From IMG/VR virus record IMGVR_UViG_3300042876_001120, positions 1 to 31,576 of that record: 31,576 bases of DNA; one strand, written 5' to 3'. A program made the translations under genes and the position numbers. The stretch's first letter is position 1. Each line of letters opens with the position of its first letter. This DNA comes from a virus. Shown piece after piece: positions 18,419 through 26,225 of this stretch. The notes below the pieces were generated by a model. It did no database searches. It saw only the letters and a program-made list of their open reading frames with translations, and had not been told where the DNA came from.

Positions 18419-19665
18419 GCGAGCGCATCCGCCGCGTCGTCGAACGGCACGCCGTCGGCTTCACGCAGGGCGGATTCGCCGCTCCAGGTCTGCCAGCGAC
18501 GCACGATCACATCGACGTATTTCGGATCGAGTTCCATCAACCGCGCGCGCCGGCCGCTCTTGTGCGCGGCGATCAGCGTCGTGCCCGATCCACCGAAGCT
18601 GTCGAGGACCACATCACCCGGTCGGCTGGAATTGCGGATGCACCGCTCCACCAACTCGACCGGCTTCATCGTCGGATGCAGATCGTTGCGCTGCGGCTTC
18701 TTGATCTGCCACACGTCGCCCTGGTCGCGATCGCCGCACCAGTGGCGCTGCGCGCCCTCCGGCCAGCCATAGAGAATCGGCTCGAACTGACGCTGGTAGT
18801 CGGCGCGTCCGAGGGTGAAGGTGTTCTTCGCCCAGATCACGAACGTCGACCAGTGACCGCCTGCGGCGCGAAACGCGGCCTGCAGCGTGTCGAGTTCGCC
18901 CGAGGACATGGCGATGTAGATCGCGCCGCGGCACTGCGCCACGATCGGCGTCAGCGCGGCGAGCAGGAAGTCGTGGAAGGCGGCGCCGAGATTGTCGTTG
19001 AGGATCGGACGCTGCGTGCCGCGCAACTTGTCCTTCGCACTGTTGGCGTAATCGACGTTGTAGGGCGGATCGATGAAGACCATGTCCGCGCGTTCGCCCG
19101 ACAGAAGTCGCACGTAGCTCTCCGGATCGGTGGCGTCGCCGCACAGCACGCGGTGTTCGCCCAGCACCCACAGGTCGCCGGGGCGCGAGACCACCGCGAC
19201 GGCTTCCTCGGGCACCTCGTCATCATCGACGTCACCGGCCTGGTCGGTCTCCTCGCCCGCCAGCAGTTCGGCGAGCGCGTCCGGATCGAAGCCGGTCAGG
19301 TCCAGATCGAAGCCGTCGGCCTGCAGCGCTTCCAGTTCGGTGCGCAGCATGGCGTCGTCCCACGCCGCGTTCTCGGCGATGCGGTTGTCCGCGATCACCA
19401 GCGCGCGACGCTGCGTTGGGGTCAGGTGATCGAGGACGACCACCGGCACCGCCTCCAGTCCGAGCTTGCGCGCGGCGGCCAGGCGGCCGTGGCCCGCGAC
19501 AATGACGCCGTCGCCACCGACGAGGATAGGATTCGTGAACCCGAATTCGACGATGCTGGCTGCGATCTGCGCGACCTGGTCGTCCGAGTGCGTGCGAGCA
19601 TTGCGCGCATACGGCAGCAGCCGCGCGAGCGGCCACTGCTCGATCTTGTCCGCGACCCAACTCAT
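18415..19665 (-). CDS. ParB-like domain fused to DNA amino-methyltransferase (DPPY)
   Basis: This 416-residue protein has an N-terminal ParB/sulfiredoxin-like domain (about 10-125; RNARTHSDDQVAQIAASIVE, VIVAGHGRLAAARKLG). The C-terminal beta-class N6/N4 methyltransferase has catalytic DPPY at 199-202 and the S-adenosylmethionine motif FGGSGT at 357-362. DPPY usually means adenine-N6 methylation, but cytosine-N4 is possible. This fusion is common in phages and modifies genome DNA against restriction. It overlaps its neighbours by four bases on each side, so the three methyltransferases form one operon. Confidence 0.92.
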   Translation of the reverse strand: MSWVADKIEQWPLARLLPYARNARTHSDDQVAQIAASIVEFGFTNPILVGGDGVIVAGHGRLAAARKLGLEAVPVVVLDHLTPTQRRALVIADNRIAENAAWDDAMLRTELEALQADGFDLDLTGFDPDALAELLAGEETDQAGDVDDDEVPEEAVAVVSRPGDLWVLGEHRVLCGDATDPESYVRLLSGERADMVFIDPPYNVDYANSAKDKLRGTQRPILNDNLGAAFHDFLLAALTPIVAQCRGAIYIAMSSGELDTLQAAFRAAGGHWSTFVIWAKNTFTLGRADYQRQFEPILYGWPEGAQRHWCGDRDQGDVWQIKKPQRNDLHPTMKPVELVERCIRNSSRPGDVVLDSFGGSGTTLIAAHKSGRRARLMELDPKYVDVIVRRWQTWSGESALREADGVPFDDAADALA

Positions 19666-21140
19666 GCCGCCTCCGATGCGGTGTCGCGACGCTCAGCCGC
19701 GACCGCATCGAATCGTTGGCCGGTCGCTTCGAGCGTGATCGGGACGTCCGGCAGTTGCTGGCGAATGCGTTCGATGGCGATATCGACGTACTCCGCGGCG
19801 ATCTCCACCGCGCGACAGCTACGGCCGGTGCGCTCGCAGGCGATCAGCGTGCTGCCGCTGCCCCCGAAGGGTTCGTACACGACTTCGCCCGCATCCGAAT
19901 ACGCCTCGATGACGAACACTGGCAGCGCGACCGGGAACACGGCCGGATGATCGATGTCCCGACCGAGCTTGCCCTTGTGGCGCATGATGCGAATCACCGA
20001 GTCCGGAATCCGCATGTCCTGTGTGGGCTGGTGTTCGTGCGACCACGCCAGCGCCCCGCCGTCCCGGCCGCGCAGCGCGGTGGACGAGCCATCGGCGCGC
20101 AGGTGGATGTCCTGCCCGGCGAACTTGCACGGCACGGTCTTGTTCGCCTTGCGGTTGTGGCGGTTGAAGTGGAAGACGAACTCGAAGCTGGGCGCGAGAC
20201 GGCCGCGCCAGTCGCCCGGCAGACCCGGCCCCTGGTCCCAGACGTACCAGCCGAAGCGGCGCCATCCCCGCGCGCGCATCCACGCGATCCAGGCGTCCCA
20301 ATACGGCTGCACTTCGTTGTCGTCGTGGACGAGGCCGAGGTTGACCAGCAGTTGGGCGTCGTCGCGCAATGCGCCGTCGGCGGCAGCGAACACCCCGCGC
20401 ATCAGCGCATCCCAGTCGCCGATGCCGCTGGCGTAGTCGCGCTGCCGCGCATAGGGCGGCGAGGTGATGCACAGGTGCGCGGTCTCGCCACGCATCAGCG
20501 CCGCGACGACGGCGGGATCGCCAGCGTCACCGCAGATCAGTCGGTGCCTGCCGATGATCCAGACATCGCCTGCGCGGGACACCGGCGCGATCGTCGATAC
20601 GGGTTCGTGGTCGTCGCCGTTGTCTTCCTCGCCGTTGTCGATCGCGTCCGCGTCGGCGCTTTTGTCGTTGGCCGCGTCCGCAGCACGCGATACAGGTTCC
20701 GGATCGCCGCCCGCCGCGTCGCCGTCTTCCACCAGGTCGAGCAGCCGCTCGATCTCGCTGGCGGTAAAACCGGTCATGTCCAGGTCGAAACCGACCTCGG
20801 CGAGGTCGGCCAGTTCCAGCACCAGCAGCGCCTCATCCCAACCGGCATCGAGGGCGATGCGGTTGTCGGCGATCACCAGCGCGCGCTTCTGCGCCGCGCT
20901 CAGGTGCGCCAGTTCGATCACCGGCACCTCGCGCATGCCGAGCCGGCGCGCGGCGAGCAGCCGGCCGTGGCCGGCGATCACGCCGTTCTCGCCGTCCACC
21001 AGGAGCGGCGAGGTCCAGCCGAATTCCACGATGCTCGCGGCGATCTGTGCGATCTGCGCATCGCTGTGCGTGCGCGGATTTTTCGCGTAAGGGATCAGCG
21101 CCTCGACCCGGCGGGTCTCGACGGTGAGGGCGTGGGGCAT
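19662..21140 (-). CDS. ParB-like domain fused to DNA methyltransferase (SPPY)
   Basis: This 492-residue paralogue of the next gene shares the ParB-like N-terminus (NPRTHSDAQIAQIAASIVEF, GVIAGHGRLLAARRLG). An Asp/Ala-rich linker at about 135-185 follows. The methyltransferase domain has TSPPY (226-230) and FGGSGST (425-431). S/TSPPY is often found in cytosine-N4 enzymes, so its target base may differ from that of the DPPY paralogue. The start is set at the ATG at 21140 (MPHALTVETRRVEALIPYAK). The frame is open further upstream, but that sequence lies in a hairpin-rich region and is not protein-like. No Shine-Dalgarno is clear. Confidence 0.9.
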   Translation of the reverse strand: MPHALTVETRRVEALIPYAKNPRTHSDAQIAQIAASIVEFGWTSPLLVDGENGVIAGHGRLLAARRLGMREVPVIELAHLSAAQKRALVIADNRIALDAGWDEALLVLELADLAEVGFDLDMTGFTASEIERLLDLVEDGDAAGGDPEPVSRAADAANDKSADADAIDNGEEDNGDDHEPVSTIAPVSRAGDVWIIGRHRLICGDAGDPAVVAALMRGETAHLCITSPPYARQRDYASGIGDWDALMRGVFAAADGALRDDAQLLVNLGLVHDDNEVQPYWDAWIAWMRARGWRRFGWYVWDQGPGLPGDWRGRLAPSFEFVFHFNRHNRKANKTVPCKFAGQDIHLRADGSSTALRGRDGGALAWSHEHQPTQDMRIPDSVIRIMRHKGKLGRDIDHPAVFPVALPVFVIEAYSDAGEVVYEPFGGSGSTLIACERTGRSCRAVEIAAEYVDIAIERIRQQLPDVPITLEATGQRFDAVAAERRDTASEAA

Positions 21141-21247
21141 CGTGGACTCGGAAAAAGAAACCCACCGACCATCGCGCCCGGGAACAGGGGGGAACGCGGA
21201 CGCAATGGCCGGTGGGTTGGAGAGAAGTGGGACATCGTCGTGGTGCA

Positions 21248-21270
21248 CAAACGCGCATGGAGCGCGTTTG
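21248..21270. repeat. Perfect 9-base inverted repeat, possible operator
   Basis: CAAACGCGC at 21248-21256 and GCGCGTTTG at 21262-21270 around ATGGA. It lies about 110 bases upstream of the first methyltransferase gene and could bind a regulator or form an mRNA hairpin. Confidence 0.65.
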
Positions 21271-21297
21271 GACCGCCGCAGGCGGGTCGCGGAGCGA

Positions 21298-21319
21298 CAG
21301 GCCCCAGGGATGGGGCCTG
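21298..21319. repeat. Perfect 9-base inverted repeat
   Basis: CAGGCCCCA and TGGGGCCTG around GGGA. It directly abuts the GCAAACC repeat array that follows. No T-tract is present on either side. Confidence 0.6.
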
Positions 21320-21379
21320 CAAACCGTGGGTTGCACCGCAAACCTGCAAACCCGCAAACCGGCGCAAACCTCGGTTTGC
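21318..21379. repeat. Array of GCAAACC repeats with two palindromes
   Basis: GCAAACC occurs at 21319, 21338, 21346, 21354 and 21364; the middle three are spaced exactly eight bases apart. The first copy is paired with an inverted GGGTTGC and the last with an inverted GGTTTGC, giving near-palindromes at both ends. The pattern resembles iterons or a cooperative operator. Its ligand is unknown. Confidence 0.75.
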
Positions 21380-22615: not shown

Positions 22616-24922
22616 TCACCACACGTCACCATCCTCCCGTTCGGCTGGTTCCGAATGGTGGCGGGCATAGGGTTTGGGGCGCAGCGATATCCCTTTGATG
22701 GCGCGTTTTCCGCCATGCATCCGGGTGTGATTGAAGCCACGGGCGAGCAGCAATTCCGAGAAACGCTTGATCGAACCGACGAACTCGCCCGCACGCTCGG
22801 CCCATTCGCGCCAATCGCCGTACAACTCCGCCGTCCCTACACGCGCTTCCGCGTGCTGGAAGGTCCGCTCCTCGATCCACTGCCCCAGCGCATCCTCTGC
22901 CTCGAAATACTCCTCGGTCGCCGAGACCACGCTCGCGGGTGGCTGCAGGCCCGTGCGCTGCCACTGCAGGCACCCAGCCAATGCCCAGGCGAGAATGCCA
23001 TCACGCTCGGCGAGCAGTTTCTCGGTCAGCTTGCTATCGCGGCGTTCGTGCGGAATCGTCACCGTGAACGGAATCAGGTGCAGACGTCGCTTCATCGCCT
23101 CGTCGACGTTGCGGATCGCCGGCTTGTGGTTGCCCGCGATGACGAGCTTGAATTGCGGCGTGTACTCGAAGAAGTCCTGGCGCATGAACCGTGCCGAGAC
23201 CTTGTCGCCGCCCGTGATCGCCTTCACCTTCGACTCGTTCCAGCGCCGGCCCTGCTCGGTCTCGATCGAGGCGACGAAGCGCGCGCCGCGCAGTCCGGCC
23301 AGATCCGTGGGATGGCGGTCGCCGCGCGCCTCCATGAACGTGTCCATCGGCGCGTTGGCGGCGTAATCGCCGAGCATCGTCGAGAGCGCGTTCACGAACA
23401 CCGACTTGCCGTTCGCACCGGTGCCGTAGAGGAAGAACAGGGCGTGCGCGCTGGTCGATCCGCTGAGGCAGTAGCCGGCCATCCGCTGCAGGTACGCCTG
23501 CAGATCGGCGTCGCCGCCGGTCACATCGCCGAGGAACGCCCGCCAACGTGGACACTCGCTGCGGGGCGTGGCCGTCGCCAGCCGGGTCTGCCGCGCGCCG
23601 CGATGATGTGCGGACATGCGCCCCGTGCGCAGATCGACGATCCCGCCGGGGGTGTTCAACGCCCACGGATCAGCGTCCCACTCTTCGGGGACGGCCACGT
23701 GCGTGGGTTCGCTGCGCGCGAACCGCTCGACGGCGGCGGTGGTCGCCGCACTGGCGAGCTTGTTTTGGTCGCTCGGCTTGTCCGCGCGCTGCGAGGCGTC
23801 CCGGCAGACGTGGCGCACCAGATTGAACACGCCGAGCGTGCGATCCTCGTTCCAGCGCTGCCCGGTCCAGACGAACCATTTGCCCCAGGCCGCGCAATAG
23901 CGCCAATCGTCGCCATGCCGGCGCGTGAACGCGGACGCGAGCCCGTCGTCGTTGCGCCAGTTCAATCCCGAGAAATCCACTGCGGGCGCCTGCGGCGCCA
24001 CCGGCAGGCAGGCACCTGCGCGCAGGAAGCCGTCGATGTCGAAACCGTCGGTGATCGCGTCGGCCGCGTCCCACCCCTCCGGCGTGTCTTCGGGCGGATA
24101 CAGGATGCGACAGGATCGCGCCCCCGCCTCAAGGATCGCGTGCGAAGCGGCATCGGCATAGTCCCAGCCCGGCTTGTCCCGGTCGGGCCAGATCACCACC
24201 GTCTTGCCGGCCAGCGGCGACCAGTCGGTCTTGTCGACAGGCGCGTTCGCCCCGTGCATTGCGGTGGTCGCGACGATGCCGACATCGATCAGCGCCTGCG
24301 CGCACTTCTCGCCTTCGACCAGGACCACGGTGTCCGCGGTCACGATGCCCGGCTGGTGATACAGCGGACGCGGCTCCGGCGGCGCCATCTTGCGACGCTT
24401 CGCATCCCACGGCCGGAATTCCTTCTTGCCGCCGGGCGGATCGTAGCGGTACACCACCGCGATCAGTTGGCCGTCGGCATCGAGGTAATCCCACTTCGCG
24501 GTCGCCGGGCCGAGGTCGTCCATCGGCGGGGTCTTTCTCGGCTTCGCGATCGGCGTTGCGGACGCGCGCCCCAGCAGACGCCCCGCCTCTTCCAGCACGC
24601 GCGGAAACTCGGCGTGTACGTCGATCCGGAAATGCGCCGCGATCAGGTCGAAGATGTCACCACCGTTGCCGTCGGCGCGGTCGGTCCACAACCCCGCCTT
24701 CTCACCCAACAGCACCACTTCGAGACTGTCGCCAGGACTGCCGAGCGCATCGCCGATGATGAACTTGCCGCGGCGCACCTTGCCGGCTGGGAACAGCATC
24801 GTCAGCACCGCCTCCAGGCGCGCGATCAGCTCGACGCGGATCGCCTCGCGCGAGTCGTCCTGCAAATGCGCGGGCGCGGCAGCCTGCGGGGCATCGTTGA
24901 AGTCCAAAGACGGATGCGTCAC
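22616..24922 (-). CDS. Primase-helicase, D5 / P4 type
   Basis: This 768-residue protein starts MTHPSLDFNDAPQAAAPAHL. A Toprim domain at about 195-290 has Glu203 in VVLVEGEKCAQAL and the DxD-type WPDRD (245-249). A D5_N-like region spans about 315-410. The superfamily 3 helicase follows with Walker A GTGANGKS (500-507), then a region with LRGARFVASIETEQGRRWNE and KLVIAGNHKPAIRN. It primes and unwinds phage DNA at the origin. It overlaps the upstream gene by four bases. That upstream gene repeats its D5_N segment. Confidence 0.93.
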   Translation of the reverse strand: MTHPSLDFNDAPQAAAPAHLQDDSREAIRVELIARLEAVLTMLFPAGKVRRGKFIIGDALGSPGDSLEVVLLGEKAGLWTDRADGNGGDIFDLIAAHFRIDVHAEFPRVLEEAGRLLGRASATPIAKPRKTPPMDDLGPATAKWDYLDADGQLIAVVYRYDPPGGKKEFRPWDAKRRKMAPPEPRPLYHQPGIVTADTVVLVEGEKCAQALIDVGIVATTAMHGANAPVDKTDWSPLAGKTVVIWPDRDKPGWDYADAASHAILEAGARSCRILYPPEDTPEGWDAADAITDGFDIDGFLRAGACLPVAPQAPAVDFSGLNWRNDDGLASAFTRRHGDDWRYCAAWGKWFVWTGQRWNEDRTLGVFNLVRHVCRDASQRADKPSDQNKLASAATTAAVERFARSEPTHVAVPEEWDADPWALNTPGGIVDLRTGRMSAHHRGARQTRLATATPRSECPRWRAFLGDVTGGDADLQAYLQRMAGYCLSGSTSAHALFFLYGTGANGKSVFVNALSTMLGDYAANAPMDTFMEARGDRHPTDLAGLRGARFVASIETEQGRRWNESKVKAITGGDKVSARFMRQDFFEYTPQFKLVIAGNHKPAIRNVDEAMKRRLHLIPFTVTIPHERRDSKLTEKLLAERDGILAWALAGCLQWQRTGLQPPASVVSATEEYFEAEDALGQWIEERTFQHAEARVGTAELYGDWREWAERAGEFVGSIKRFSELLLARGFNHTRMHGGKRAIKGISLRPKPYARHHSEPAEREDGDVW

Positions 24923-25494
24923 TGCGCGCGCTCCCCGCCAGCCGGCATCGCATCCGCACGCAGGCGCGCGATCCGCTCCACGGCCGCGACCGTCGTGGCG
25001 CTGGCAAACCAGCGCCTTGCCTGTTCTGTCCTGGCGCGATCAGCGGCTTCACGGCAAAGGCCGCGCACCCGGTCGAACACGGCAAGCGTGTCGTCCCGAC
25101 GCCAGCCTTGATCGGTGCGAACGAACCAACTTCGCAAGCGCGCGCTGTAGCGGCAGTCGCTGCCGTGACGACGCACGAAGATCTCAGCGAGCCCTTCGCG
25201 ACGGTGCCAGTTCACGCCGTTGAAATCCGTGGCGACCGGCGGAGGTGAGACGACGACGGTTGCGGCATTGGCCTGTTCAAGCCGCGGCGCGACGACGGCC
25301 GCGTGGCGATCGCGCCACTGCTCCAGTTCGCTCAACCGGAACCGGACCAGATGGCCGATGCGATAGTGCGGCACGCCGCGCGCGCGACGCTCGACCGCGT
25401 TGTTGAGCCACTGCATCGGAATGCGCAGCGCCTCGTGCGCGGCGCGCGCGGAGACCATCGACTCGGCGTGCGGTGGAAGGTGTCCGGGGATCAT
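24919..25494 (-). CDS. HTH protein with a segment duplicated from the primase D5_N region
   Basis: This 191-residue protein is translated from the ATG at 25494, which overlaps the exonuclease stop (ATGA). Residues 15-65 resemble a helix-turn-helix of AlpA or terminase type (ARAAHEALRIPMQWLNNAVE, GHLVRFRLSELEQWRDRH). Residues 90-178 align, about half of positions identical by eye, with primase residues 316-402: DF-G-NW, RRHG-D-RY, WFV-T-Q-W, VF--VR--CR and AAVER-AR. It has no Toprim or Walker motifs. It may load or regulate the primase, or bind the origin. The role is inference; the similarity is seen directly. Confidence 0.8.
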   Translation of the reverse strand: MIPGHLPPHAESMVSARAAHEALRIPMQWLNNAVERRARGVPHYRIGHLVRFRLSELEQWRDRHAAVVAPRLEQANAATVVVSPPPVATDFNGVNWHRREGLAEIFVRRHGSDCRYSARLRSWFVRTDQGWRRDDTLAVFDRVRGLCREAADRARTEQARRWFASATTVAAVERIARLRADAMPAGGERAQ

Positions 25495-26225
25495 CGGGAA
25501 CTCCAGCAGCGGTCCTGCCATGCGCAGAACCGGCACTCTAAATGGGTGGGATCGGAGAAGCTGCGCGGCAGCAGTTCGCCGGCATCGGTGGCGAGCACGA
25601 TCTGCACCGCGCGATCGGACATGCGCTGCGCGAGTTGGCCGTCGAAGGGCACGCGCTCGGCGTAGACCTCCATCGTTTCGGCGTTGATCGCGGTGAACAG
25701 CGCCGGGTGGGCGTGCAGATCGAGATACGCCTGGTACATCGCGACCTGCGCGGCGTACACCGGCTTGGCGACGGCGAGCCGGTTTTTCTCCAGGTCGCGC
25801 CAGGCCTTGGCGCCGAGAAATTTGCACTCCCAGAGCGCCGGGTAGTCGTAGCCCTCGGGACCGGCGACGAAGACGCCGTCGACGTGACCACGTAATCGGC
25901 CATCGAGCGCGGAGAAGCCGAACTGCGTGCCGTCATCCTGGCGCGTGCGCAGATCGAAGCCGGCACCGCGCAGCCACGCGACCATGCTCTCCTCGAGCAC
26001 GTGGCCACGCTCGAAGATGCGCAGCATGCGGCCATCGGTGTCGCGACCGGGATCGACCGGCGCGTCGGCGTACTCGTACTGCAGCGCACGCGAGCAGGCC
26101 ACGCCGAGCCGCGATGCGCCGAGGTAGGTACGTTTGGGCTCGGCCGCGCGCGCCTGCTGCAGGCCGATGTCGATCAGGGCTTCGAGGCGTCCGGACTCGC
26201 TCGACGATGAGTTGAAATCCAGCAT
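25491..26225 (-). CDS. PD-(D/E)XK exonuclease with Cas4-like Fe-S cysteines
   Basis: This 244-residue nuclease has Asp116 in GHVDGVF, then Glu133 and Lys135 in LWECKFLG, and Gln160 in AAQVAMYQAYL, the RecB-type motif order. Four cysteines, Cys44 and Cys231, Cys234 and Cys240 (CRFCAWQDRC), match the 4Fe-4S arrangement of Cas4/AddB nucleases. It probably resects double-strand ends to feed the Sak4-like ATPase encoded upstream. It is separated by nine bases from the DUF6511 gene and overlaps the next gene by four. Confidence 0.85.
   Translation of the reverse strand: MLDFNSSSSESGRLEALIDIGLQQARAAEPKRTYLGASRLGVACSRALQYEYADAPVDPGRDTDGRMLRIFERGHVLEESMVAWLRGAGFDLRTRQDDGTQFGFSALDGRLRGHVDGVFVAGPEGYDYPALWECKFLGAKAWRDLEKNRLAVAKPVYAAQVAMYQAYLDLHAHPALFTAINAETMEVYAERVPFDGQLAQRMSDRAVQIVLATDAGELLPRSFSDPTHLECRFCAWQDRCWSSR

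Follow-up and report, generated by a model that had tools for sequence, protein, structure and literature searches.

The gene directly upstream of the primase-helicase in this phage encodes a new domain arrangement, a well-supported one, in which an HTH head is joined to a stand-alone copy of the collar of D5-type helicases. The gene, hereafter P1, lies at positions 24919-25494 on the minus strand of the window, which is the whole stretch of 31,576 nucleotides analysed, and starts with an ATG codon to give a protein of 191 residues with a predicted winged-HTH (Xis/MerR-like) head. With a probability of roughly 0.45, we propose that P1 is a collar-multimerised, origin- or operator-binding accessory factor that assists primase-helicase loading, and that its collars assemble with one another. 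The 31.6-kb window carries tailed-phage structural genes, including those for the terminase, portal, major head and tail proteins, and tape measure. Relatives with the same gene arrangement sit in Lysobacterales genomes, and the host is therefore probably a member of this order.

The primase-helicase (P2; 22616-24922, minus strand) is a protein of 768 residues with Toprim-like, D5_N and SF3 helicase regions, is assigned to phrog_6088, PRK07078 and P4-family primase_Cterm, and passes TIGR01613. The P1 stop codon and the GTG start codon of the primase overlap by four bases (24919-24922, minus strand), and the same -4 arrangement is present in every related locus with the long, collar-bearing form of the gene; translational coupling is the probable consequence. 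Directly upstream of P1 is a gene for a Cas4-domain exonuclease (25491-26225, minus strand; phrog_1990, E 1e-72), whose stop codon shares four bases with the P1 ATG. The coordinates of P1, its position 5' of the primase and the four-base overlap had been given correctly in an initial annotation, and the coding strand is the minus strand; a gene on the plus strand was ruled out, plus-strand translation being noise. Elsewhere in the window, positions 19662-21341 encode a single protein of 559 residues that is apparently a fusion of a ParB-like nuclease domain and a DNA methyltransferase. No RNA families were found.

The HTH head occupies residues 13-65 of P1 (25300-25458, minus strand), and is the part shared with the short HTH gene that precedes the primase at about 95 related loci. 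The HTH_17 profile scores below its Pfam cut-off in P1 (16.9 bits versus 27, E 0.008) and just over it in the P1 homologue of locus L065 (27.3). PHROG profiles divide the protein in two, with the N-terminal part matching excisionase families and the C-terminal part matching the primase family phrog_6088. In structural comparisons, residues 11-71 resemble Tn916 Xis, BldC, the N-terminal domain of CarH, and RdfS, with Z values of 3-3.7 only and a pLDDT of about 40-69 for this block, a moderate confidence at most. To our knowledge, these Xis/MerR-like proteins have no collar and are not neighbours of primases. The DNA-binding-like N-terminus that the initial annotation had recognised is supported, as a prediction, by the excisionase PHROGs and the HTH structural matches.

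The relationship of the C-terminal part to the primase is evident from pairwise alignment, where BLASTP matches P1 residues 77-177 to P2 residues 303-403 without gaps, with 50 of 101 positions identical (50%, E 8e-27). The identity of about one half that had been estimated by eye for the primase D5_N segment was accurate, and the motifs DF-G-NW, RRHG, WFV and AAVER are all found in P1. The Pfam D5_N profile (PF08706) scores 23.9 bits in P1 against a curated cut-off of 22.4 (E 5.7e-5), and the cut-off is also exceeded by relatives in G863 and G864. A chance match or artefact is ruled out by the profile score together with the BLASTP E-value. The match covers profile positions 1-79 of 145 in P1 and positions 1-144 in the primase; P1 is not a full-length D5_N member, and has the D5_N collar only. 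The Toprim and SF3 helicase part is absent, as the initial annotation had it, and because P1 has neither a Toprim or AEP primase nor SF3 Walker A and B motifs, it is not a P4-family primase-helicase. Between the HTH and the collar is a linker of residues 66-94 (25213-25299, minus strand), placed by the BLASTP match to the primase and by allele comparison. Short and long alleles part ways from about codon 66, and the second half of the linker (residues 77-90) is still similar to the linker between Toprim and collar in the primase.

The collar copy itself, as delimited by AF2, fold alignment to D5/E5 residues 323-405 and BLASTP, spans residues 95-182 (24949-25212, minus strand), and its counterpart is residues 316-403 of P2 (23714-23977, minus strand), which lie within a block that is sharply variable among relatives. 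In the AF2 model of P1, which is not independent of the primase collars contained in its alignment, helices are predicted at residues 99-110, 138-153, 157-164 and 166-182, and strands at residues 114-117, 122-127 and 130-133, with pLDDT values of 82-90. This succession of a helix, a three-stranded sheet and three helices is the order of the D5 collar, and P1 is thus predicted to adopt the collar fold. Poxvirus D5 and E5 account for every one of the 36 best Foldseek hits, with weak E-values (best 0.066). The best 31 entries in a second structural comparison are E5, D5 and ASFV C962R, with Z values of 4.9-6.4, the next unrelated row having a Z of 3.9; the D5 and E5 rows align to residues 321-405. 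These Z values are modest, but carry weight because they agree with the sequence homology. A sequence profile search of the PDB with P1 gave no significant match, the similarity to these structures being by fold alone, and a BFVD fold search returned mostly primases and helicases, with no clear HTH-plus-collar protein among the matches listed. For the whole primase, AF2 gave a low-quality model (pLDDT 56, with most of the collar below 50), which was left out of the analysis.

In vaccinia D5, the collar is the sole autonomous structural unit of D5_N, and oligomerisation requires residues 323-381 (PMC9611036). Because the predicted fold and the borders of the copied piece match those of the D5 collar, it is the whole collar and not a randomly cut fragment. 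P1 had been described as carrying a partial copy of D5_N; derivation from D5_N holds, whereas 'partial' is better refined to a complete copy of the collar subdomain. The fold shared with D5-type collars, on which that description depended, is recovered by AF2, by Foldseek and by the second comparison. The predicted fold and element order of P1 are like those of the D5_N collar in vaccinia D5, mpox E5, ASFV C962R and the P4-family phage primases, but in P1 the collar stands alone at the C-terminus of an HTH protein, with no second D5_N half and no SF3 helicase.

The copy also differs from primase-type collars in its residues. P1 keeps 20 of the 30 primase-collar columns that are at least 90% conserved and changes the other 10, six of which cluster in the sheet and are fixed or nearly so (W114C, W120L, G121R, W126R, G128D and R130G). 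The copy is, in addition, richer in arginine than primase collars. With 10 of 30 conserved residues changed, six of them in the sheet, the copy may have lost the ability to build the same ring, and judged from its sequence it looks like an altered yet maintained domain. A 29-nt direct repeat, 83% identical between its copies, is present at 24808-24836 (the primase start, VELIARL) and 24954-24982 (the end of the P1 collar, VERIARL); it may be a relic of the recombination event by which the collar arrived, or it may be chance.

The adjacency of an HTH gene and this primase, noted in the initial annotation for the window, extends to related phages. Scans of viral and genome sequences found HTH-primase pairs at 101 distinct loci, with the HTH gene nearly always beside this primase and the frames mostly overlapping. 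Ninety-five of these have only an HTH protein of about 60-90 residues, and six have the long form (the long forms being the window, L001-L007, L026 and L027, which include near-duplicates beyond the six distinct loci). For instance, the short form in Acidithiobacillus phage AcaML1 is Gp16, a protein of 84 residues that, like P1, has a homologous HTH and is encoded in overlapping frames between a Cas4-like gene and a PRK07078/phrog_6088 primase, but that lacks the collar, the short form ending about 10-15 residues past the HTH. The short-HTH state, seen at 95 of the 101 loci, is likely ancestral. Since most relatives carry a short HTH protein without a collar, the system does not depend on having one.

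Among the 101 loci, the collar-bearing form is confined to one clade of Lysobacterales phages. P1 collars form a single clade (100/100) nested within the A-type primase collars of Lysobacterales (96/99), in a tree with a long stem (1.73 changes per column) and a short alignment. The tree points to a single gain of the collar, from an A-type primase of the same phage group. A foreign origin is not favoured given this nesting, with the same caution as to stem and alignment. The simplest history consistent with the sequences would be a single duplication that appended the linker and collar of such a primase to the HTH gene, followed by fast divergence and then constraint. Across 299 genomes of the phylum, the D5_N profile has 39 matches. 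The P1 homologue alone ends at profile position 79; each of the others extends to position 142-145, and its open frame is 466 residues or longer. Phage and plasmid records matched the P1 collar only through primases or weak chance matches, with no other stand-alone collar among them, and a search of viral contigs with the collar alone found nothing outside the P1 clade.

Exchange between alleles is also seen at these loci. Long-form locus L002 and short-form locus L012 have 195 identical HTH bases and are 92% identical over the 600 bases upstream, and long and short forms have therefore recombined here recently. Contig names place long and short alleles together in two metagenomes, 3300035183 and 3300036768 (L002/L009 and L003/L008). 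Two loci have an additional gene, of about 190 codons and with a sigma-70 region 4 domain (Pfam E 2e-19), that separates the primase from the short HTH gene (L089:3406-4000 and L113:3418-4000), and in L107 and L125 only both ends of this gene are left; the HTH-primase junction in these four loci seems to be a site of insertion or deletion. The primase match at L013:3163-5409, and in L014, L015 and L016, falls in three reading frames with the same break points, and appears to represent either a broken gene or a shared assembly fault. At L024:3597-5852, the primase frame is apparently interrupted, being open for 520 residues from the start with the match reaching residue 751.

The initial annotation had named recent decay of a split primase gene as the outcome that would undo its reading. 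A functionless remnant of a duplicated or split primase gene is the explanation suggested by a fragment of primase descent, yet the P1 collar is under purifying selection, with a dN/dS of about 0.2. For the collar part, one independent pair gives a pN/pS of 0.13 (Fisher p 1e-7) and another gives 0.21 (p 3e-4), and a third, close pair is not significant; the pooled value of 0.22 is the lowest among the six frames, and no copy of the collar contains a stop codon. Open copies, this constraint, a single origin and the likely ancestral short HTH all stand against recent decay, as do the conservation of the copy in two primase backgrounds and in Lysobacterales genomes, and the coincidence of its borders with domain borders. 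Decay is, on this evidence, highly improbable.

Within the primase, identity among relatives is 85-100% over the helicase core and falls to about 30-70% in a block around residues 281-440. Taken over residues of about 281-468 (23519-24082 in the window) and the same region in L001-L031, the relatives differ at 30-70% of positions. At least three primase collar types are present, among them A (as in the window and L002), B1 (as in L004 and L007) and B2, and the region is judged from these alignments to be a block swapped among relatives. The P1 collar, by contrast, keeps 92-95% identity when phages with A-type primases are compared with those that have B1-type primases, although the collars of the primases themselves share only 55%. 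That the P1 collar is steady while the primase collar is swapped argues against an obligatory, allele-specific co-assembly of the two proteins. Of the two roles put forward in the initial annotation, this decoupling would weigh against the dominant competitor, if it has to join the primase ring, and to a lesser degree against the origin-binding loader, if its collar docks on that of the primase. Self-assembly of P1 collars seems favoured over mixing into the primase collar ring, with the decoupling, which is indirect and compatible with contact to a conserved primase face, being the sole evidence here that separates the two.

In the mechanism that we propose for P1, the collar would act as it does in D5-type helicases, driving multimerisation, probably into a ring whose inner face is basic, while the HTH would bind the phage origin or an operator. 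Multimeric P1, made in amounts coupled to those of the primase, would then gather or load the primase-helicase at that site. The collar ring of D5-type enzymes is stable, and basic residues that it carries are needed for unwinding (Arg387 in E5; Lys439, Lys525 and Arg529 in C962R), making a P1 ring that encircles or touches DNA plausible. Against the proposal, a scan for direct repeats near the genes, as origin iterons, gave two-copy matches only and nothing convincing.

Other functions draw on much of the same evidence. P1 could instead load by co-assembly, its collar docking on the collar ring of the primase-helicase or substituting for a subunit, with the HTH tethering the ring to the origin. 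The copy stems from the same primase lineage, is probably coupled in production through the four-base overlap, belongs to an HTH gene that nearly always adjoins this primase, and retains the helical part along with several invariant residues, namely R109, R115, R144, C147, R148, V172, A176 and R177. However, a packing partner would be expected to co-vary with the primase collar, which P1 does not, and six sheet residues that are near-invariant in all primases are gone, so that we regard co-assembly as rather doubtful. P1 might otherwise be a transcription regulator or excisionase, its collar merely stabilising a multimer and its tie to replication being positional; the HTH is similar to those of excisionases and MerR-type regulators, and multimers are frequent among phage regulators. 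This is unlikely, since the short HTH gene is tied to this primase in nearly all relatives, in different hosts and mostly with overlapping frames, a tie that points instead to a part in replication or, failing that, to autoregulation of the replication operon.

A negative regulator, in which P1 poisons or caps the primase-helicase ring to hold down replication or copy number, or keeps out co-infecting phages whose collars are of other types, would fit the ability of free oligomerisation domains to compete, the co-occurrence of long and short alleles in the same metagenomes, and the exchange of the primase collar block, as expected if collar identity counts between co-infecting phages. A purely functional parallel exists on the archaeal plasmid pRN1, where orf56 encodes a repressor in copy-number control and, like P1, is a small regulatory gene directly before that of a D5_N-type replication protein, orf904 (PMC4234260). 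The pRN1 primase is of another type, and no collar is reported for ORF56 in that text (PMC4234260). A further possible parallel is cnr of P4, which lies near alpha, the primase-helicase gene, and controls copy number (PMC8628076). The P1 gene is coupled to primase expression rather than opposed to it, and its collar is decoupled from that of the primase, making such a regulator quite improbable.

The prior view was that the collar of D5-type helicases is never found apart from the motor. We suggest, as a tentative and still doubtful generalisation, that a helicase collar may be detached by duplication and reused as a DNA-tethered ring module (a loader, cap or origin ring) in a group of phages with collar cassettes. 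A natural stand-alone collar, fused to an HTH, under selection and located beside its parent enzyme, lets the roles of the collar in ring formation, DNA gating and partner choice be asked singly, and the exchangeable primase collars provide natural alleles for testing collar self-recognition. P1 shows a concrete route by which a phage builds a helicase accessory factor out of a piece of its own helicase.
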